In this document: positions 7,095 through 23,177 of the stretch, one piece after another
Layout: the number at the start of each line of letters is the position of its first letter
How positions within the stretch are numbered: position 1 is the first letter of the stretch
IMG/VR virus record: IMGVR_UViG_3300031999_000191
Location: 1 to 23,783 of that record
Length of the DNA: 23,783 bases
Direction: 5' to 3' (one strand)
DNA from: a virus
Made by a program: the position numbers and the translations under genes
The notes under the pieces: generated by a model
Database searches by the model: none
What the model was told of the DNA's origin: nothing
Seen by the model: the letters and a program-made list of their open reading frames with translations, nothing else

Positions 7095-7310
7095 TTACCC
7101 CCAGTTGTCTTCGTTGAGTTCCTGCGAGGGCGAGAGCGAACAGGTGGTAGCACCATCGTCTTCATCGGCTGGCACAAGTGATGGGGCTGGCGCAGAAGGG
7201 GATACCGTGATCTGTGTGGCGGCGAAGGCCGCGAATGGTGCCGATGCAAGGCACTGGAGGATCGTGCGGCGAGAGACACACCCTTTTACGCAACGTGTGA
7301 GTTTTTTCAT
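7095..7310 (-). CDS. Small exported protein with Tat-like signal peptide
   Basis: 71 residues. The start ATG at 7310 overlaps the TerL stop (ATGA), which decides it over the longer frame. The N-terminus is basic (MKKLTRCVKGC), then SRRTILQ, close to the twin-arginine motif S-R-R-x-F-L-K. An uncharged stretch rich in A and F (CLASAPFAAFAA) follows, with a possible signal-peptidase site AFAA/TQ. The mature part would be about 40 residues, rich in proline and acidic residues. Export to the periplasm would be unusual for a gene in a packaging operon. It is not recognised as a known lysis or exclusion protein. Alternatively, the hydrophobic part may anchor it in the membrane. Confidence 0.6.
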   Translation of the reverse strand: MKKLTRCVKGCVSRRTILQCLASAPFAAFAATQITVSPSAPAPSLVPADEDDGATTCSLSPSQELNEDNWG

Positions 7311-8836
7311 CCGTTCATCCATCCCGTCTCGGCGCTTCTGGGATCCAGGACCATCGTGGCCTGGTCTCGGGTGACAACCGCGACCTTGGCTCGCGCTCGG
7401 CCACTGCGTACCCACATTCTGGTGCAGTCCTGGAGGTGATCATTCTGCTTCACGATCCGCCCCTTCTCATCGCGGCGATAGAGGCGGTACTCATCGAACC
7501 ACGCTCCGCACGACGAGAACACCTTGAGCTTCCCGGCACTCAGGAGCGTCCAGACATCTTGGATCCCCGATTCCACACTCTTGTCAGCGAGCTGCAAGTC
7601 GAGTCCGAGCTGTCGGTAGATGTCGACGAACTGCCGGCCATCTTGATTCGTAATCGCGGCGGCATCTCCCACGCCTGGGATCCACTTCCCTCGCGCTCGG
7701 ATGGCCTCGGCGTGAATCGGCGCTTCTGCGTGGCCGCGTTTATAGACCGAGTAGATGTAACAGGTCTGTGTCTCGCGATCTAACGCGCCCCAGACCGCAG
7801 CGGTCCAGTCCCAGCCCGTGTCTAGTGCGAACGCACGCGGCCAATGCTCGGGAATCTCGAACGGGGTGCAGCGAATCTCACTTTCAGGAATCGGATAGAT
7901 AGTCCCACTCCCGAGCGCCGGGATGCCTTTGCTTCGGGCTTCCCGCTGGTAGACGGGGAACTCTCGCAGCATCTCGGTCTTGGCCTTGTCATCCAGATGC
8001 GGACAGTCGTCCCAGTTCGCCATCACCGTGTAGCGTGACATCTCCGGGGTCTTCTCCGGCGCTTCGTCGCCACGGTCGTTCGCGCCAAAGACATGCACAT
8101 GTGCAGGCTTCAGGACACTCACGCCATCATCAATGACTTCCAGGGCGCTCCGCTCGAGCCATTCGCTCAGGAACGGCGTCAGGCCCATCAGCGGGGTCAT
8201 CGTCACAATCATCAGGCCATTGACGGTCATCGTCCGAATCAGCGACTCGCCATGAATCTCGGGTGGCGGTTCTTCGTCTTCCCAGATGACGTGCTTGGTG
8301 GTGCCTTGGAAGGCTTCGCGCTTCTGGTCGTAGCTTTTGATGTCGACCGAACTCATCCCGCCACTGCGATGCCTCACCCAGATGGTCGAGACCGCGCCGG
8401 AGATCCCTTGCTTCCGGGCAATCTCGTAGACCAAGGGCCGAGGAATCATCCCGCTCCACAGCTTCGTGTCAATCGTCGAGGTGGGGCCAAGGAGTGAGGT
8501 TTGGATGATGTCTCGCGCTGTGCCACTCGTATCGCCTGCGGCCCAGGCTTCGATGGGAGTGTCAAAGCGGCGTCCCTTCCACCATCTGGGATAGAGTCCG
8601 GTCAGATGACAGGTCAACTCGAAGGACGCGACGTCCGTTTTGCCAATCCGATTCGCAGCTAAGAAGAGGCGCTGACGCCAGGACGCGCCGGCCTCGAAGA
8701 ACGCGACGTGTTTGGGATACAGCGTTCTCCGGAGCGGTCCCTCATCAGGATAGTACTGATACCACCGGCAGCGAGCACGTTCGGCCCGGGCTTCCGCGAG
8801 TCCTTCAGGCGAGGCGAGATAGGTGAGCTCAGCCAT
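7307..8836 (-). CDS. terL: Terminase large subunit (ATPase-nuclease packaging motor)
   Basis: 509 residues from the ATG at 8836 (MAELTYLASPEGL). It pumps DNA into the procapsid through the portal and cuts it. The ATPase Walker A is AANRIGKT at about 60-67, Walker B with the catalytic acid is HVIWEDEE at 182-189, and the coupling motif VTMTP is at 211-215. The nuclease domain follows: ALDTGWDWTA with Asp339, and DHLQDCTR at 466-473, whose Asp466 and Asp470 match the usual late metal-binding acids. Length agrees with P22 gp2 (499). The start overlaps the stop of the upstream CxxC gene by eight bases. TerL-portal-scaffold-coat order agrees with P22-type phages, although a run of small genes separates TerL from the portal. 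Confidence 0.95.
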   Translation of the reverse strand: MAELTYLASPEGLAEARAERARCRWYQYYPDEGPLRRTLYPKHVAFFEAGASWRQRLFLAANRIGKTDVASFELTCHLTGLYPRWWKGRRFDTPIEAWAAGDTSGTARDIIQTSLLGPTSTIDTKLWSGMIPRPLVYEIARKQGISGAVSTIWVRHRSGGMSSVDIKSYDQKREAFQGTTKHVIWEDEEPPPEIHGESLIRTMTVNGLMIVTMTPLMGLTPFLSEWLERSALEVIDDGVSVLKPAHVHVFGANDRGDEAPEKTPEMSRYTVMANWDDCPHLDDKAKTEMLREFPVYQREARSKGIPALGSGTIYPIPESEIRCTPFEIPEHWPRAFALDTGWDWTAAVWGALDRETQTCYIYSVYKRGHAEAPIHAEAIRARGKWIPGVGDAAAITNQDGRQFVDIYRQLGLDLQLADKSVESGIQDVWTLLSAGKLKVFSSCGAWFDEYRLYRRDEKGRIVKQNDHLQDCTRMWVRSGRARAKVAVVTRDQATMVLDPRSAETGWMNG

Positions 8837-9188
8837 CGCGCTTCTCCCAGGCGCCGCAGACGTTGCCCACGTCTCGGCACAACAGTCCGGCGAAACTTCT
8901 CGCGCCCGGACCCGTGCGACACCACAGTTCATCGCGATAGTCGATGCTGTGCTTGCACGTCGCGCACGTTCGCATCAGTCCCATTCTCAACTCCCCGTTC
9001 TCGGTCACGAGTCGTGCATACTCCTGCTTGAAATAGGCGAGGAGGATCTTGAGGTCGTTGGTGTCCGTCTCGTGGCAGCGCACCGCGTCGGCGAGCGCCA
9101 CCACGAGTTCGTCTACCTGTTCATTCGACAAGGTGCAGTCATCGCTGGCCACCTCGTCGGCCCACTCCAGCATGTGTTCAACCGTCAT
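8829..9188 (-). CDS. Hypothetical protein with C-terminal CxxC...C...CxxW module
   Basis: 119 residues. The N-terminal 65 are acidic and helical (SNEQVDELVVALADAVR). The C-terminal part has TCATCKHSIDYRDELWC, then a short loop and two more cysteines ending VCGAWE. Four spaced cysteines ending C-x-W-E look like a small metal-binding module, probably zinc. The same module ends the early 18263-18874 product (CETCRHW...CNAWE). It lies between the glycosyltransferase and TerL genes and overlaps TerL by eight bases. The start ATG overlaps the stop of the 9185-9256 micro-gene. No known named function is recognised. Confidence 0.75.
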   Translation of the reverse strand: MTVEHMLEWADEVASDDCTLSNEQVDELVVALADAVRCHETDTNDLKILLAYFKQEYARLVTENGELRMGLMRTCATCKHSIDYRDELWCRTGPGARSFAGLLCRDVGNVCGAWEKRDG

Positions 9189-9256
9189 GGCGCACGCTCA
9201 TCGGTGTCGTACCCCTCGAGAAACCGTCGCGAATAGATCGCGTTGAGGTTAGCCAT
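9185..9256 (-). CDS. Possible 23-residue micro-protein
   Basis: The frame opens at the ATG at 9256, overlapping the glycosyltransferase end by a few bases, reads MANLNAIYSRRFLEGYDTDE and ends ATGA into the next start. The overlap on both sides fits the coupled style of this phage. No strong ribosome site is visible (GGGAG lies far upstream), so translation may depend on coupling. It may equally be a chance short frame. Confidence 0.35.
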   Translation of the reverse strand: MANLNAIYSRRFLEGYDTDERAP

Positions 9257-10043
9257 GGAAGGGATACGTCTCCCGGAGAGACCGCTCAATCGGCGCGTGC
9301 TGTGTCCGATTCCACTGATGCAGCAGTAACGGTTTCATCGTGCGCTCCTCCATCCAGATGCCCTCGGCGTCACACGAAAAGTCTGAGGCGGGCGCATAGC
9401 CCATGTGGACGCACTGGGTGTTCCGGTAGGGCAAGACGAGTGAGGTGGCGTCCTCATCAAGCGAGGCCCAGACATTGAGAGACGACTGGTCAAACCCCAC
9501 GACATCGTCACCCTGTCGCTCCGCGAGTTCTTCGGCATAGGTCTCAAGATACCGCATCAGTTCGCTGCGAATCCCCCCGAACGCACCGCAACAGATGACC
9601 GGCGTGTCCTCCAGCGTCTTGAGCCAGCCCGGGCCGAATCCGCGTGCGACCCACGCCCGATTGAACGGACAGTCCCGCACCAACACGTTCTCCTGCGTCA
9701 TCCACATCCCACGACTCAGGTCAATCCCGTCCAGCGACCCCTGGCAGGCCACGTCAAACACGTCAAGGCAGATCGCCTCCGTCACCGCCACGTTATGGAG
9801 GAGCCATGCTCGATAGTAGAGATTCCGAGCGACGTTAGGGCCAGCAGGATGCCGGTCCCCCGTGATGGGGAAGATCTCAATGCGGTACGTGTCACAGAGG
9901 GCTTCGAGGCTGAAGTCTCCCCCAGACAGCATCAGCACAATCCGCAGGTCCGGATTGAACCGCCGGAGACTCTCTGCCCAGATCTGCACATACTTCCGCT
10001 TGCTCTTCCGCTGGAGTTCGACGTAGCCCAGCACCACGCGCAT
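9249..10043 (-). CDS. Glycosyltransferase-like protein (nucleotide-diphospho-sugar transferase fold)
   Basis: 264 residues. The region ICLDVFDVACQGSLDG (about 92-106) matches the D-x-x-D-V metal/nucleotide-sugar motif of nucleotide-diphospho-sugar transferases, where it reads LTD-RDV-FQ. The preceding VARNLYYRAWLLHN and the later GDDVVGFDQSSLNVWA are also in the layout of this family, the latter matching its conserved D-Q-x-x-x-N. AAGGGA precedes the ATG, and the gene follows the methyltransferase by four bases, suggesting joint work. Phage sugar transferases alter either the host surface polysaccharide or the virion/DNA. The substrate is unknown. The GT fold is inferred from short motifs, so confidence is moderate. 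Confidence 0.65.
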   Translation of the reverse strand: MRVVLGYVELQRKSKRKYVQIWAESLRRFNPDLRIVLMLSGGDFSLEALCDTYRIEIFPITGDRHPAGPNVARNLYYRAWLLHNVAVTEAICLDVFDVACQGSLDGIDLSRGMWMTQENVLVRDCPFNRAWVARGFGPGWLKTLEDTPVICCGAFGGIRSELMRYLETYAEELAERQGDDVVGFDQSSLNVWASLDEDATSLVLPYRNTQCVHMGYAPASDFSCDAEGIWMEERTMKPLLLHQWNRTQHAPIERSLRETYPFHG

Positions 10044-10047
10044 CGTG

Positions 10048-10728
10048 TCATCCCTTCTTGTCGCGGACGGTCCACAGCCACGACCGATACTTTTCGCCCG
10101 GTTCGCGCTTCCGTCGATGCGTGCGCCCTAACACAAACCACGGACGCACCGCATGGCTCACGGTCCACCCGTCCACCGCCGCCACTACGTCAATCTGGCG
10201 CTCCACCAGATAGTCGTGGCCCGCCATCACCCCACCCACCCGGATCTTCGGCATCCATGCCGCCAGATCCGCCACCACATACTCAAACTGGTGGTTCCCA
10301 TCGAGATACACAAAGTCTAACGACCCGTCTGGCAGACGCGCCGCCGCCCGGAGACTGTCCTCACGCATCAGCGTACAGCCATACGGACGCAACCGTCGCT
10401 CCGCCGCCTCATACGCAGACTGGAACGCCGCATCCCCCATGACAGACCCGCCGCCCTCCTCAATCGGATGACGGTACTTGAATCGCTGGTTATACGCCGC
10501 ATATTGCGTCCACGAATCGACACACGTCAGGTGCAGTGAGGGATTCGCGTGACACAACTGTTCCGCATACACCCCCTCCCACACCCCCACCTCCACCCCC
10601 GTCGTGAACCCCAGGTCGTGAAAGTACGCCGGCAGGTCTGCGCGAATCGCGCCAGGAACCACCCACGGCATCGGCACCGTCGCATCCTGAGACGCATCAC
10701 GCCCCTGAAAGTACGCAGCCAGATTCAT
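10048..10728 (-). CDS. Class I SAM-dependent methyltransferase (Methyltransf_24 type)
   Basis: 226 residues. The SAM-binding motif I is VEVGVWEGVYAEQL (about 45-58), followed by an acidic residue at the end of strand 2 (CVDSW, Asp71). Later, SLDFVYLDGNHQFEYVVADL and KIRVGGVMAGHDY give the motif of the family that includes small-molecule and sugar O-methyltransferases (DG-H, then GG---HD). Phage DNA adenine or cytosine methylase motifs (DPPY, PC) are absent, so a sugar or protein substrate is more likely than DNA. GGAG lies eight bases before the ATG. It is followed four bases later by a glycosyltransferase-like gene, which suggests a shared glycan-modifying task. Confidence 0.8.
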   Translation of the reverse strand: MNLAAYFQGRDASQDATVPMPWVVPGAIRADLPAYFHDLGFTTGVEVGVWEGVYAEQLCHANPSLHLTCVDSWTQYAAYNQRFKYRHPIEEGGGSVMGDAAFQSAYEAAERRLRPYGCTLMREDSLRAAARLPDGSLDFVYLDGNHQFEYVVADLAAWMPKIRVGGVMAGHDYLVERQIDVVAAVDGWTVSHAVRPWFVLGRTHRRKREPGEKYRSWLWTVRDKKG

Positions 10729-10890
10729 GCCCGTCGCTCCACCCCTCCATGCGTGTCCATGTCGCCGACTCTACTCCCTCAAAGAGGCTCAGTCAAGCCC
10801 AATCGTCCCCCAGCTCGCCCCGATCCCTGAATCCTCCCCCTCCCTCCACCTCTCCCAAGACCGTAGACCCCCTGCCTCTCTCCTCTCACA

Positions 10891-10970
10891 CGACCAGACA
10901 GACCACGACCAGACAGACCAGACCGCAGGACCACAGACCAGGACAGGATAGACTCGGACCAGACAGACCA
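10891..10970. repeat. 15-base direct repeats CGACCAGACAGACCA
   Basis: Two perfect, contiguous copies lie at 10891-10905 and 10906-10920, and a third copy with one change (GGACCAGACAGACCA) at 10956-10970. Between them are degenerate pieces (CCACAGACCAGGACAGG). An inverted partial copy TGGTCTGTCTG lies at 12211-12221 in the divergent control region. Tandem protein-binding sites (terminase, replication initiator) would look like this. Confidence 0.85.
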
Positions 10971-11069
10971 GCAGCCTCAGCTCAGACTCGAGGCTCAGTC
11001 GTCGGGCAGCCTGGACCCGTACATAGATTTGGATGGGTAGCGCGTGTGGCTCGCGCCGCAGCCCCGACC

Positions 11070-11094
11070 GGGCCGGGGGGTGGGGGGCGTCGGG
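11070..11094 (+). other. G-quadruplex-type motif
   Basis: Four G-tracts of at least three (GGG, GGGGGG, GGGGGG, GGG) are separated by two, one and four bases on the plus strand. The pattern fulfils the usual G4 rule. In the long non-coding stretch it could stall polymerases or act as a structural signal. Confidence 0.6.
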
Positions 11095-11278
11095 CCGGTG
11101 GCCTGGACGGGTCAAGGCAAGGCAGGGCAGCATGGCAGGGCAGCAGCAGCCTACAGCCTAGCACCCATCCAGCCTCCCTGCTTGTCAGCGCAGGCGCAGG
11201 GCAGCCAGCCAGCGCAGCATCCCAGGTCATCAGAACGCCCATTATCAGACGTGGCACGTTCTAGGCGCAGATATGGGC

Positions 11279-11316
11279 GAAAGCGAAACAGAGCTCGCCG
11301 GCAGTCCTTCGCTTTC
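11279..11316. repeat. 9-base inverted repeat with 20-base loop
   Basis: GAAAGCGAA at 11279-11287 is the exact reverse complement of TTCGCTTTC at 11308-11316. There is no poly-T tract after either arm, so it is more like a protein-binding or RNA-processing site than an intrinsic terminator. It lies 42 bases beyond the end of the 70-residue zinc-protein gene. Confidence 0.5.
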
Positions 11317-11358
11317 CTGCATTCTAGGCCCGTACTCGAGAGCGAAGGTCCAGCCGGC

Positions 11359-11571
11359 CTACTTCTTCTTCGGCTGTGGATGGAAGGGCCGACGGGCAGG
11401 CGGCGCAGGGCTGACAGGCTGATCGTCGGCAGACGGCAAGACGGGCCCCTTGGCACGCCTGACCCCTTCCCGGTGGCATTGGCGGCAGCGATAGGACCGT
11501 TGGATCACCAACTGCCAGTCAGGAGCATGACCGTGCCTACAGGGGCGCGTTGGTAGTAATACCTCTTTCAT
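11359..11571 (-). CDS. Small zinc-binding (HNH-like treble-clef) protein
   Basis: 70 residues. Residues 11-40 contain CRHGHAPDW, then YRCRQCHREGVRRAK. The pairs C-x-HGH and C-x-x-C-x-R are the conserved start of many phage HNH/zinc proteins, but the second half with the catalytic His-Asn-His is missing; instead the protein ends in a proline- and lysine-rich tail. It is therefore probably a stand-alone DNA-binding zinc module rather than a nuclease. AGG lies seven bases before the ATG. The start is 34 bases past the end of the candidate small terminase gene, beside the GGTAATAC repeats, which may control it. Confidence 0.65.
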   Translation of the reverse strand: MKEVLLPTRPCRHGHAPDWQLVIQRSYRCRQCHREGVRRAKGPVLPSADDQPVSPAPPARRPFHPQPKKK

Positions 11572-11595
11572 GAGCCTGATATTACCAGATCGGGC

Positions 11596-11637
11596 GTGGT
11601 AATACTAGGTGGTAATACTAGGCTGTGTGGTAATACC
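11596..11637. repeat. 13-base tandem repeat GTGGTAATACTAG plus a third partial copy
   Basis: Copies at 11596-11608 and 11609-11621 are identical and contiguous. A third, GTGGTAATACC, is at 11627-11637. Related sequence (GGTAGTAATACC near 11551, and an inverted GATATTACCA near 11578) lies just downstream. The repeats cover the last codons of the candidate small terminase, including its stop, and reach toward the start of the zinc-protein gene. Confidence 0.8.
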
Positions 11638-12117
11638 AACCTCAGGGTCTGGCTGAGACTCGACTGAGACTGACTGAGCCGGCAGGAGTGCCACGGGCTG
11701 AGGCTCGGTGGCCTGGGCAAGGCGTTGATTGAGCGCCTCCAATGCCCTGAGCTCCCCTTCGTCCAGCTGGGCTAACGCTACGGCGGTCATGGCCTGTAGT
11801 CTGAGCGGTCCTCCGCCTGGCCCTGAGAGCTCGATGCTTTGGATGGCCTTGCCGAGGTAGCGGTCAAAGATGTCTATAATCATGCGCGAGTCGCCTTTGA
11901 GCGCCATTTGGAGAGACTTCCTGACGAGGCGCTGCGCGTTGGACTCGACTTGGCGGCGGTAGACTTCAATGAAGGATTCACGGATCTTGGGGTCGAGGCG
12001 CGGAGCTCTGGGTTGGGTCTCTCGGCGTCCTGGGGGTCTGCCGTTGGGGTTATTGGTACGGGGTCGGTCTGTTCTCGTCTGTTCTAGTCCCGGGCTTCCT
12101 AGGGCGTTTTCGGTCAT
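11605..12117 (-). CDS. Candidate terminase small subunit (DUF5681-like)
   Basis: 170 residues. The N-terminus has the NPNGRPPGRR element seen in DUF5681-like and small-terminase-like proteins. Residues 45-100 are helical (SFIEVYRRQVESNAQRLVRK, then LKGDSRMIIDIFDRYLGKAI), followed by QSIELSGPGGGPL. The string D---LDRYLGKP/A-Q--E--G is frequent in proteins annotated as terminase small subunits or their relatives. A small terminase recognises packaging sites and feeds DNA to TerL. The ATG has AGGAG ten bases upstream. TerL, however, is four genes and a non-coding block away (about 2.8 kb), unlike the usual adjacent pair. Its C-terminal codons run through the 13-base repeats. The role is an inference. 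Confidence 0.6.
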   Translation of the reverse strand: MTENALGSPGLEQTRTDRPRTNNPNGRPPGRRETQPRAPRLDPKIRESFIEVYRRQVESNAQRLVRKSLQMALKGDSRMIIDIFDRYLGKAIQSIELSGPGGGPLRLQAMTAVALAQLDEGELRALEALNQRLAQATEPQPVALLPAQSVSVESQPDPEVGITTQPSITT

Positions 12118-12395
12118 CTGGCCTAATCTCCTGGGACAGAATACGCCTGGACGGGGAAGAGGTCAAGGCGGATTCAGGGATCGTGGCGATTAGGTCAAGC
12201 GACCTAAAGCTGGTCTGTCTGTGGCCAGACTAGCGGGCTTCTGCTAAGTCATTGATTCTAGGGAAGATACGGACAATATCTAGCTGGAGCCAGAACAGTG
12301 AGCCAGACTAATCGGGCGTGGATGTGTAAATGGGCGTGTTTTTGAGGATCTGGTACGGTATGGGGGTTGCACTATGTCTCTGTGGAGGTAAGGCC
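12118..12395. promoter_or_regulatory. Divergent control region between late (minus) and plus-strand cassettes
   Basis: A 278-base gap between genes reading away from each other must hold promoters for both. It contains a hairpin/operator TTAGGTC-AAGC-GACCTAA (12190-12207), an inverted copy of the CAGACAGACC repeat (12211-12221), two copies of GCCAGACTA (12224-12232 and 12302-12310), and AGATA-N7-TATCT near 12265-12281. Promoter hexamers are weak (TTGATT at 12252-12257, then CAATAT), so activation by a phage or host factor is likely. Confidence 0.6.
12190..12207. promoter_or_regulatory. Inverted repeat TTAGGTC-AAGC-GACCTAA (operator or short hairpin)
   Basis: Perfect 7-base arms with a four-base centre, about 75 bases upstream of the candidate small terminase start. 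No T-run follows, so it is more likely an operator than a terminator. Confidence 0.55.
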
Positions 12396-16752: not shown

Positions 16753-17027
16753 CGGTGCCCCTCCAGCGTATAGCGCCACACCCCGCCGCCGATGTGGTCC
16801 TTGTGGATCTGGTAGCCGTGGTGAAGCCGTAAATCACTCATCCGACCCGTGTACCGAAAGCAGATCTGGTTGAGGTCAGGGCCAGTCGCCGGCCCCTGGC
16901 GGAGTCGGGCCAGAATCCGCCACATCGCCGCATCGGTGCGCTCATGCTCAGACGTCATCACGGCACGATGCTGCTGGTAGACCGTCGTCAACCCGTCCCC
17001 GTCCAGCGGCAGGCGTGACTCGGTCAT
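16749..17027 (-). CDS. Winged-helix/HTH DNA-binding protein
   Basis: 92 residues from the ATG at 17027 (ATGA overlap). Residues 42-88 follow the helix-turn-helix pattern W-ILA-LR-GPATGPDLNQICFRY, then RMSDLRLHHGYQI and a wing, GGGVWRYTLEG. This W-I-L---G-AT---L--I---R-S/I-DLR--GY layout is a known phage winged-helix type (HTH_39-like). It probably binds DNA as an early regulator. It sits in the same coupled run as the nucleases. Confidence 0.75.
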   Translation of the reverse strand: MTESRLPLDGDGLTTVYQQHRAVMTSEHERTDAAMWRILARLRQGPATGPDLNQICFRYTGRMSDLRLHHGYQIHKDHIGGGVWRYTLEGHR

Positions 17028-17575
17028 GTGGGTGTCCCTTTCTGGCGGGCCTGCCACACGGCGAGGGCTTCGTCTACCGTGCGTATTATCTGCATGGCTC
17101 CATCGGTGTATCCCGCCCTGAACGCGGCTTCTTCGCGGTCTTTTACCGGGGTGAATGGGCCGTCCTTTTCTACCGGAGCGTCACGTAGTTGCGTGATGAT
17201 TGCATCGCGCTCGGTTAGTTGCTCCCGCAGGGCGTCCCGCTCGGCTTCGGCATTCAGCGCACGTTCTGTGGTGTGATCCTGCCAATGCTGCACTTGCGTG
17301 ATAAGGCCTTTACGCCGGTCAAGTTCGTCTGTTTGGGCCTTTACCATCTCTACAAGAGATTGGACTTCGGCGACCTGCTCCCGCAGGGCGTCACGCTCGG
17401 CTTCGGCTGCTTCGGCCCGACGTTCGTACTGCCCGATGCGCGCCCAGTGATCGTCCCGGGTAGCCTCGGCCTCCCCTTGCAGCCGTCGCACTTCACGGGC
17501 CAACGTGTCGAGGGCTGAGGGACCAACATTCGCAGCGGCGGCGGCGAGGGCGCGGTCGAGGTCATCGTTAGTCAT
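17024..17575 (-). CDS. Coiled-coil protein, paralog of the upstream gene
   Basis: 183 residues from the ATG at 17575 (MTNDDLDRALAAAA). Heptads run through most of the protein with repeats of the phrase AEAERDALREQ (about residues 66-75 and 113-122). The end is EAAFRAGYTDGAM, then EALAVWQARQKGT. Start and end match the next gene upstream, which shows tandem duplication. Long coiled coils in phages can be structural, or act as rod-like linkers for enzymes. The stop overlaps the HTH gene (ATGA). The start overlaps the paralog's stop by eight bases. No known family is certain. Confidence 0.75.
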   Translation of the reverse strand: MTNDDLDRALAAAAANVGPSALDTLAREVRRLQGEAEATRDDHWARIGQYERRAEAAEAERDALREQVAEVQSLVEMVKAQTDELDRRKGLITQVQHWQDHTTERALNAEAERDALREQLTERDAIITQLRDAPVEKDGPFTPVKDREEAAFRAGYTDGAMQIIRTVDEALAVWQARQKGTPT

Positions 17576-17606
17576 GTGTCCCTTTCTGGCGGGCCCGCCA
17601 CACGGC
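17032..17606. repeat. Duplicated 31-base segment and short coiled-coil repeats
   Basis: The 31 bases at 17032-17062 return at 17576-17606 with one change. Each begins at the 3' end of one coiled-coil gene (encoding VWQ/RARQKGT). Shorter, nearly identical pieces based on GCTCCCGCAGGGCGTC occur at 17221, 17377, 17699 and partly at 17870; all encode ERDALREQ-like heptads. This points to gene duplication followed by recombination inside the coiled coils. Confidence 0.85.
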
Positions 17607-18266
17607 CCGAGCCTCGGTGAGCGTGGCAATGCCCGTATGACACGCCTTCCCTGCGTTCCAGCCTGCCTTGAACGCGGCGTCTTCGCGCTCGGCCACCTGC
17701 TCCCGCAGGGCGTCCCGTTCTTTACAAGTGAGATCCCACGATGCTCGTAGTCCACGCTCCTGCGCCTCGATCTCTGCTTGCCAATGCTTGTCTGCCACAT
17801 CTAGTTGCGCTTGCAGCGCGTCCCGCTCGGCCTCGGCATCTGTGCGGTCAGTGAACATCTTGGCGAGTTGCTCCCGCAGGGCGGCGTTCTCGGCGTGAAG
17901 GGCTACGTTCACAGTCGCCACTAAGTCAAACCGAGAGCGATAATTGGCGTTGCTGACACACACCGCGTCGTAAGCGTCAGCGGTGGGACAATCGTACAGT
18001 TTCCGCGCAAGCGCGGCGCCCACCTCGGCTTCCACCTGTAACCGCGCGACCTGAAACCGGCGCTCTTTCAGTTCCGCAAACGTGGACGCCTCGCGGGAGG
18101 TGGCGGCGTCCCATTCGGCGCGGATACGCTCCACATCCCCTTGTAGCCGTCGCACGGCAGCGGCGAGGGTGCGGAGCCATGTGTCGTGCATACACTGGCC
18201 GGTGTTTACCGTTTCCAGATGTCGCTCGACTTCTACGAGGGCGCGGTCGAGGTCGGGGTTAGTCAT
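17568..18266 (-). CDS. Coiled-coil protein, larger paralog
   Basis: 232 residues from the ATG at 18266 (MTNPDLDRALVEVERHLE). It has the same start and end as the downstream gene: (M)TN-DLDRAL and AAFKAGW-AG, then VWRARQKGT. The middle is longer and carries TLAAAVRRLQGDVERIRAEW, DAEAERDALQAQLD and KERDALREQVAE. Heptad spacing supports an elongated helical protein. A cysteine-bearing segment (KLYDCPTADAYDAVCVSNAN) interrupts the coil. The start ATG overlaps the stop of the gene before (ATGA). The paralog pair lies between the replication fragment and HTH genes, but no role is known. Confidence 0.75.
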   Translation of the reverse strand: MTNPDLDRALVEVERHLETVNTGQCMHDTWLRTLAAAVRRLQGDVERIRAEWDAATSREASTFAELKERRFQVARLQVEAEVGAALARKLYDCPTADAYDAVCVSNANYRSRFDLVATVNVALHAENAALREQLAKMFTDRTDAEAERDALQAQLDVADKHWQAEIEAQERGLRASWDLTCKERDALREQVAEREDAAFKAGWNAGKACHTGIATLTEARAVWRARQKGTHD

Positions 18267-18874
18267 GTGCGTGGCTCCCATGCGTTGCAGGCAAAATCGG
18301 TTCGGGTGTGGACTCCGAAGAACTCGCACATGCCTTGGCCGTCTCCTCCGCATTCATCCCAGTGTCGACACGTCTCGCAGCGCATCCCGCGTAGCCGTTC
18401 GACTTCCGCTTCGGCGGCTTCGGCGCGGTGCCTCCAGTCCTCCCACTTGTCAGCCCACCAACGCTCTGATGCTTTGACGGCCTCCGCTTGGGCGGCAGCG
18501 AGTTCGGCGTAGGGTTCGCCCAAGATGGCCCGCGTCCGGTTCCACAGCGCGACCACTTCATCCTCGGTTTCGTCGTTGCTGCCACGGCTCAGGCCAATGC
18601 GGTAGCCGTAGCGGAACGTGGCTTCGCGCTCTCGTTCCCACCGTTCCCGGAGCGTTTCAACGTGTGCGGCCAGCGCATCCACGCACCCCGGCCCACGCAT
18701 CGCCGGGTCGGTCCCGAGCGCCTCGCCAGCCACGTTGACCATACGGATGACTTCCGTCGTCAGGAGGTCCAGCGCCTGCTCGCGCAGGTCGTCGGGGGAT
18801 TCGACACCGTGGCTGATGCGCCAGAGGTCTACAGCCCGGAGGCTGGCGATGGTGAGTGCCGTGTCAAGCGTCAC
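18263..18874 (-). CDS. Hypothetical protein with helical body and C-terminal cysteine module
   Basis: 203 residues from GTG at 18874 (GGAG seven bases upstream). The longer frame to 19051 or 18985 is rejected because it lies inside the gene before and lacks ribosome sites. The body is helical (LTIASLRAVDLWRISHGVE, AEAAEAEVERLRG). The end carries CETCRHWDECGGDGQGMC, then FACNAWE: two cysteines, a third, and the C-x-x-W-E finish seen also in the 8829-9188 product. This probably binds a metal. Unknown function. The start overlaps the previous stop by 11 bases. Confidence 0.65.
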   Translation of the reverse strand: MTLDTALTIASLRAVDLWRISHGVESPDDLREQALDLLTTEVIRMVNVAGEALGTDPAMRGPGCVDALAAHVETLRERWEREREATFRYGYRIGLSRGSNDETEDEVVALWNRTRAILGEPYAELAAAQAEAVKASERWWADKWEDWRHRAEAAEAEVERLRGMRCETCRHWDECGGDGQGMCEFFGVHTRTDFACNAWEPRT

Positions 18875-19208
18875 GTCGGGACTCCATTCTGGCTTTGATG
18901 GCGTGGTGGGCGGGGGTTTCACAGCGGGGGTGATGATCGCACCAGTCGCAGCCGTAGGGTCGATACGCGGCAGGAACGAGTTCATCAGGCCGGATCTCGT
19001 CCTCCCACCGTGCGCCTCTAAGCCACGTCGCTGGGTACGGAATAAATCCATCAGCCCACTGCTGGGTCATCATCTGCTGTTCGATGGCGTCGATGATCGT
19101 CTCCTGGAGCGGTGGAGAAGGGGCCAGTTTCTCCCATGCCTTCTCCGCGTCCTTCTTGGCGACCTTCCGAGGGTAGGCAGTCCAGAATGCTGTGAATCCG
19201 TCGTCCAT
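18864..19208 (-). CDS. Phage replication-protein (lambda O-like) C-terminal-type protein
   Basis: 114 residues from ATG at 19208 (AGGAG upstream, TGATG overlap). FTAFWTAYPRKVAKKDAEKA is the conserved FW--YP-K--K--A--AW motif, and DGFIPYPATWLRGARWEDE near residues 54-72 is the P-P-A-TWL----W-D motif found at the C-terminal end of phage replication initiators and helicase-loader partners. Here it stands alone without the usual N-terminal winged-helix domain. It could recruit the host helicase, or be a remnant of a larger initiator. A CDWCDHHPRCE motif follows, possibly zinc-binding. Confidence 0.75.
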   Translation of the reverse strand: MDDGFTAFWTAYPRKVAKKDAEKAWEKLAPSPPLQETIIDAIEQQMMTQQWADGFIPYPATWLRGARWEDEIRPDELVPAAYRPYGCDWCDHHPRCETPAHHAIKARMESRRDA

Positions 19209-19345
19209 CACCGCTCCTTACTCCACCCATCGATCCACTTCTCGAGCAGCCGGTCTGCCTGGGCATCCGCCCGTGCCGCCACGACACAGAGGCTCCAGGC
19301 CACAAACCAACCGGCCAGCACCACGGCGATGAGGATGTAGATCAC
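19208..19345 (-). CDS. Short single-pass membrane protein
   Basis: 45 residues from GTG at 19345 (GGAGG four bases upstream; GTGA overlap with the gene before). YILIAVVLAGWFVAWSLCVV makes one membrane helix, then a charged helix ARADAQADRLLEKWIDGW. A very small inner-membrane protein coupled between a zinc protein and the replication fragment. No known family. The longer frame to 19486 is a shadow. Confidence 0.6.
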   Translation of the reverse strand: MIYILIAVVLAGWFVAWSLCVVAARADAQADRLLEKWIDGWSKER

Positions 19346-22322: not shown

Positions 22323-23177
22323 TTATTCGCACAGGTTGTAGACGCTCAGGCAACCGCTTTCTGTGCAGCGGCCCCACATGCGGATCTGATCTTCGTCGGC
22401 AGATTCGATATAACGCCTCACGTCCGCAACGGTGGCGTACGTCTTGCCGGTGTCCTCGCGCCATCCCGTCTGGAACCTATCGGGGATGATGTTGTTGCGG
22501 AAGAACGAGGGTTCGTAGTTGGGGTGTTTGCTGTCTAAGTTGGCCGCCTTGCTGTCGCGCACCGCCGCTTCCATTTCTAGAATGCGATCCCAGACCTCGG
22601 GCATGGTGTGGGTGAGGCGCCGGAGTTCACCCAGGTTCACCATGACGCACGGAAAGCAACCTACGCGGGCCGAGCCGGCCTTGTAGAGTGGATTCGGTGC
22701 CACGCCGTATCGCTTCATCAGGGCGAAGCACGCCTCGGCGGTCCAATCGAACAGGGGCCGCTCAATCCATGCGCCGAAGTTGTCGTTGTACACCCGGCGG
22801 GGCATCTTGCTGCGGGCCTGGCTTTCGTCGGCCCTAATGCCCTGGTACACCGTGGCATCACCAAAGCCCTGCTCGTCCATCCACGCGATGAAGGGCAGCA
22901 CCTTGAGTTCTTCGGTGCAGAATCTAGCCCTCACGGCGGGGATCATCTGCTTATGGGCCACGAGATCGAGCATCCCGTTGGCGTACTTGTGCGTCCGCAA
23001 CGTGACCAACTTCCCGCCCAGTAGCGTCTCGTTGATGTGCTGCACATAGGCATACGTCAGCGGATGCTCCCACCCGGTATCGCAAAACACCGCCGTGAAC
23101 TCGGGCAGGTTCTCCTTCGCCCACAGCACCAGCGCCGTGCTGTCCTTGCCGCCGCTGAACTGGACGATGTGGGTCAT
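22323..23177 (-). CDS. PAPS-reductase-like PP-loop protein
   Basis: 284 residues. The PP-loop FSGGKDSTALVLW (residues 8-13, SGGKDS) binds ATP or an adenylyl-sulfate substrate. The second motif is FCDTGWEHP, followed by Cys87 (RFCTEELK), GIRADES, then GCFPC (Cys174, Cys177). Extra cysteines at 271, 276 and 283 lie at the C-terminus. The family reduces phosphoadenylyl-sulfate or activates sulfur for DNA or tRNA modification; phage copies are common, with unclear substrate. Clustered cysteines suggest an Fe-S centre. It is one gene from the endolysin, unusual for sulfur metabolism, so it may act as an auxiliary metabolic gene or in DNA modification. Confidence 0.8.
   Translation of the reverse strand: MTHIVQFSGGKDSTALVLWAKENLPEFTAVFCDTGWEHPLTYAYVQHINETLLGGKLVTLRTHKYANGMLDLVAHKQMIPAVRARFCTEELKVLPFIAWMDEQGFGDATVYQGIRADESQARSKMPRRVYNDNFGAWIERPLFDWTAEACFALMKRYGVAPNPLYKAGSARVGCFPCVMVNLGELRRLTHTMPEVWDRILEMEAAVRDSKAANLDSKHPNYEPSFFRNNIIPDRFQTGWREDTGKTYATVADVRRYIESADEDQIRMWGRCTESGCLSVYNLCE

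Follow-up and report, generated by a model that had tools for sequence, protein, structure and literature searches.

A repeat-rich non-coding block between the terminase genes of a P22-like podovirus: a possible control spacer beside probable cargo genes

Between the probable small terminase gene (terS) and the large terminase gene (terL) of a virus genome fragment lie 630 bases with no gene in them and with far more repeats than shuffled versions of the same bases contain. What does a phage keep such a stretch for? The original prediction took it for a packaging or replication site. We think instead, with a probability of roughly 45%, that it is an ordinary intergenic control spacer, bordering cargo that was inserted between terS and terL. 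New in this analysis is the finding that two words, here called E1 and E2, are shared in inverted orientation by the block and the sequence 5' of terS. For now, what we have is chiefly a spacer that is well described.

Such a spacer could work as follows. On the - strand, the terS transcript would end within the hairpin behind a 70-aa ORF or beyond it, and a second transcript, starting near 10.77-10.80 kb, would carry the methyltransferase, a glycosyltransferase-like gene, a 119-aa ORF, terL and the structural genes. One regulator, from the phage or the host, would bind E1 and E2 at two promoter regions; these words point towards the downstream gene both at the block and at the divergent region (12.1-12.3 kb). 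The remaining simple repeats (GACCA, GCAGG, CCTCC) would most likely be slippage products in unconstrained DNA.

The block and its neighbours

The window, meaning the whole stretch of DNA that was analysed, is a virus record of 23,783 bases to which no second contig belongs. Portal, scaffold, coat and large terminase all match phage head-and-packaging families in profile searches, several of the portal's relatives are annotated as P22-like, and judged by its sequence the window is a piece of a P22-like podovirus genome. Among named phages, EBPR podovirus 1 has the closest large terminase (49% identical); searches with the portal and glycosyltransferase-like proteins found no closer kin, and those with the small terminase and the methyltransferase led to one and two distant loci, respectively. 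The genes from terS (12117) leftward to the end of the window lie on the - strand, and a small + strand cluster begins at 12330, so that 12118-12329 is a divergent intergenic region. From terS to terL the order is the 70-aa Cys/His ORF, the block, the methyltransferase, a 264-aa ORF and the 119-aa ORF (Table 1). The block had been placed between the terminase genes, which is loosely true, since two genes and the 119-aa ORF separate it from terL.

Table 1. Features of the terminase region, by position in the window
Feature	Position	Strand	Basis or remark
Large terminase (terL)	7307..8932	-	family matches and comparison with named relative
264-aa glycosyltransferase-like ORF	9249..10043	-	resemblance by eye
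Methyltransferase (PF13578, Methyltransf_24), probable cargo	10048..10728	-	family match; fourfold-site composition
Non-coding repeat-rich block	10729..11358	.	codon model, gap length, repeat excess vs shuffles
Sigma-70-like hexamers TTGACT-17-TAGAGT (weak)	10768..10796	-	40 bases upstream of methyltransferase start
E1, GGAGGATTCAGGGATCGGGGCGA	10815..10837	-	21/23 match to 12167-12189; points towards methyltransferase gene
15-base repeat array CGACCAGACAGACCA	10889..10971	+	two perfect tandem copies and degenerate copies; ACAGACC word x4
G-quadruplex motif	11070..11094	+	motif search
Terminator-like hairpin, no U-run	11298..11358	-	directly after 70-aa ORF stop; arms GCCGGC..CCTTCGCT / AGCGAAGG..GCCGGC
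70-aa Cys/His-rich ORF	11359..11571	-	coding score negative; no relative found
Probable small terminase (terS), DUF5681-like, 170 aa	11605..12117	-	sub-threshold PF18932 match and L002 synteny
E1 core, third copy, 1 mismatch	11974..11986	+	within terS, in its 5' portion; possibly chance
E1 copy, GGCGGATTCAGGGATCGTGGCGA	12167..12189	+	divergent intergenic region, 50 bases upstream of terS start
E2 copy, GCTGGTCTGTCTGTGGCCAGACTA	12209..12232	+	has CTGGTCTGTCTG in common with block array, inverted orientation

That terS probably encodes the small terminase we argue from its match to PF18932 (26.6 bits, against a cut-off of 27.5) and from the synteny of one relative, at locus L002, which itself matches PF18932 and has a terminase-like gene directly downstream; the fold model of the candidate, with a pLDDT of 49, was too poor to use in a fold search. 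The 70-aa ORF could conceivably encode a zinc-binding protein, a weak suggestion from its residues. GTRGTAATACY is present four times in an A+T-rich stretch (11548-11645) at the 3' end of terS, two of the copies forming a perfect 13-base tandem (GTGGTAATACTAG), and inverted copies (GATATTACCA) accompany them; the stretch folds well on the + strand (z -3.3) and looks more like iterons than the block does.

Within the block, neither strand carries a coding signal. A codon model was trained on 20 genes of the window, all of which it scores positive when they are left out in turn; it gives every ORF in the block a negative score. On this ground we reject a hidden gene, which bears out the claim that these bases are gene-free; they also make up the longest gap in the gene map, exceptional as had been said (gaps of 530, 375 and 374 bases come next). 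No Rfam family matches the block at its gathering score (the hits are chance-level animal RNA families, E 0.8-5), it contains no tRNA, and a structured RNA spanning all of it was rejected, since it folds no better than its shuffles on either strand. Searches of phage, plasmid and viral-contig collections, which may omit near-identical records, returned no relative of the block at the DNA level. Its GC content is 65%, with no A+T-rich stretch (A+T peaks at about 42% in 60-base bins). The predicted change in strand composition does fall inside it, with a local minimum of cumulative GC skew at 10989; the C-rich stretch, however, continues through the methyltransferase gene.

The repeats that had been described are all there. 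There are 45 repeated 8-mers (shuffles: mean 8.5, maximum 28), and the 15-mer occurs as two perfect adjacent copies (10891-10905 and 10906-10920) with a third, one mismatch away, at 10956-10970, or three matches where shuffles lead one to expect 0.08. Repeats of the GGCAGGGCAGC type lie at 11122-11145 and 11196-11219, the perfect 9-base inverted repeat GAAAGCGAA/TTCGCTTTC at 11279-11287/11308-11316, and the G-quadruplex motif where it was predicted. This last is less special than it looks: of the four such motifs in the window (1.2 expected), the - strand carries three, at 10220, 10572 and 10798, and two of these sit within the methyltransferase coding sequence; the block has one per strand. 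IMG/VR has no exact copy of the repeat pair. The terS-terL gaps of relatives are free of repeats in L008, L011, L013 and L014; that of L009 has two short pairs.

As for signals of transcription, the hairpin has a folding energy of -25.9 kcal/mol (z -2.3; z -2.9 in a 100-nt window), gains no stability in a longer window (11255-11361, z +0.4) and could pair alternatively, with GAAAGCGAA at 11279-11287 as its second arm. Promoter-like hexamers turned up three times in the 4.5 kb scanned, with 1.2 expected. Of a control spacer at a cargo edge, what we observe directly is the non-coding state, the repeats, the words in common, the hairpin, the gene order and the deviant methyltransferase composition; insertion history, promoter, terminator and regulator are the parts that we infer, the promoter and terminator steps because the hexamers are near chance and the hairpin has no U-run.

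Genes between the terminase subunits

In most of the relatives that we examined, terS abuts terL. The two adjoin or overlap in EBPR podovirus 1, MW202520 and L013 (in L013 with one small ORF between), and in P26218 and MW202557 a terS-sized gene occupies the place of terS beside terL. L011 has a split similar to that of the window, with two extra genes and a 462-nt gap from terS to terL.

Among 18 genes, the methyltransferase has the most deviant composition at fourfold sites (chi2 53.8, p 1e-11), and for that reason the block probably lies at the border of inserted cargo. G occupies 67% of fourfold sites in the methyltransferase, 15% in terS and 37% in terL; terS (in the opposite direction) and the portal also deviate, and the glycosyltransferase-like gene does so weakly. 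This last gene matched no family in our searches and owes its name to inspection by eye. The arrangement resembles the boundary of a phage moron, in that a foreign-looking gene, unlike its flanks in composition and with a spacer of its own upstream, separates genes that are neighbours in relatives; it differs in that the promoter and terminator that morons bring with them are here candidates, near-chance hexamers and a hairpin without a U-run. It may also be that the two probable cargo genes just belong to the late operon.

Words common to the block and the terS region

E1 and E2 came to light after the fact, when inverted repeats were sought around the block. Of the E1 core, GGATTCAGGGATC, the window has three copies (one with a mismatch) where 0.07 are expected, and the two E2 sites, 10949-10972 and 12209-12232, agree over 12-13 consecutive bases, with CTGGTCTGTCTG among them. 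ACAGACC, four times on the + strand of the block, is found twice on the - strand near the start of terS. Between block and divergent region, the E1 score was reached by none of 5000 block shuffles, and E2, the second match, has by itself a p of 0.04. What gives this sharing weight is that both copies are non-coding and face the downstream gene in the same way. It is nevertheless suggestive and short of proof, because among 5711 pairs of random real segments one unrelated pair equalled the summed score of E1 and E2 (the two further hits were the block and the divergent region themselves), and in a self-search of the whole window E1 has an E of 0.18. The order of E1 and E2 is swapped between the two places and their distances to genes differ; around terS in 11 relatives we saw no comparable inverted sharing, and IMG/VR has no exact match to E1. 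A functional site in the block is plausible because two non-trivial words recur in the 5' region of terS; the features computed here fit packaging and transcription control alike. Should both be sites of one regulator, they would show phage control over genes inserted between terminase subunits.

In the divergent region there is also an operator-like palindrome, TTAGGTC-AAGC-GACCTAA (12190-12207), with no other close copy.

Other readings of the block

The strongest competitor, somewhat less likely in our estimation, is that the spacer does nothing at all: unconstrained DNA grown by slippage beside an inserted gene pair, with relics of a duplicated promoter region. The low-complexity repeats of several different units, the folding of the whole block like its shuffles on both strands, and the lack of any conservation in the phage, plasmid and IMG/VR searches all speak for it. 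E1 speaks against it, being a word of no low complexity that has kept 21 of 23 bases between two sites, and so does the fact that phages rarely keep 630 idle bases.

The main rival with a function, an unlikely one, for which the nearness of the block to terS argues, is that it is part of a packaging site, in which the small terminase would bind the E1 and E2 sites flanking terS and the large terminase would make its first headful cut nearby. The 15-mer array and the common words amount to repeated, putative small-terminase sites, and the words span the promoter region and 5' end of terS (11974, 12066, 12170 and 12212) and recur in the block. The block, however, lies beyond the terS stop, some 250-880 bases downstream, unlike the pac sites of P22, inside terS (PMC9611059), and SPP1, across the terS promoter and start (PMC4737164), places that correspond to 12.0-12.3 kb in the window. 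Since published pac sites are so placed, the E1 and E2 copies at 11.97-12.23 kb, which alone lie there, would be better pac candidates than the block. Like SPP1, the window has words that recur over the small-terminase promoter region and the start of the gene; it differs in having the block 3' of terS, in its protein family and in offering a candidate drawn from sequence alone. With P22 it shares the same kind of portal and coat neighbourhood, whereas the P22 site is a 22-base sequence inside terS and the block is an intergenic array. Against a packaging role, too, are the absence of the E1/E2 arrangement from all 11 relatives compared and the finding that, in the one case tested, that of phage SF6 TerS, the DNA-binding domain little prefers such repeats (PMC4737164). 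If E1 and E2 were terminase sites all the same, they would provide a P22-like group that is poorly sampled with a packaging signal that can be tested. A bolder form of the idea, which we consider quite improbable, is a split packaging site, with the small terminase recognising two inverted E1/E2 clusters, one at the start of its own gene and one in the block about 1.3 kb away, the cargo spacer having become the second half of the signal.

Least likely of all is a replication origin with iterons, which the local skew minimum and the fourfold-site skews to its left (-0.63, in the adjoining gene) and right (+0.54, in terS) would favour, and against which stand a skew that reverts within 2-3 kb leftward and tracks single genes, cumulative GC-skew curves of three relatives with no common minimum, a GC-rich block with no A+T-rich unwinding region beside its repeats, and replication-protein matches at about 18.9-21.1 kb, those at 18864-19211 being about 8 kb off, so that the block is neither in nor beside an initiator gene, where iteron origins lie. 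A composite junction left by gene insertion would explain the strand-composition change inside the block without an origin, with which it is still compatible.

Elsewhere in the window, the protein encoded at 22323-23177 resembles PAPS reductase and DndC-type sulfurtransferases, at scores below curated cut-offs. At 17000-18300 there are related - strand ORFs that contain repeated 'ERDALREQ' stretches and are apparently duplicated genes, and two adjacent copies of a tail-type gene, at 9-410 and 603-1004, are 61% identical in DNA.
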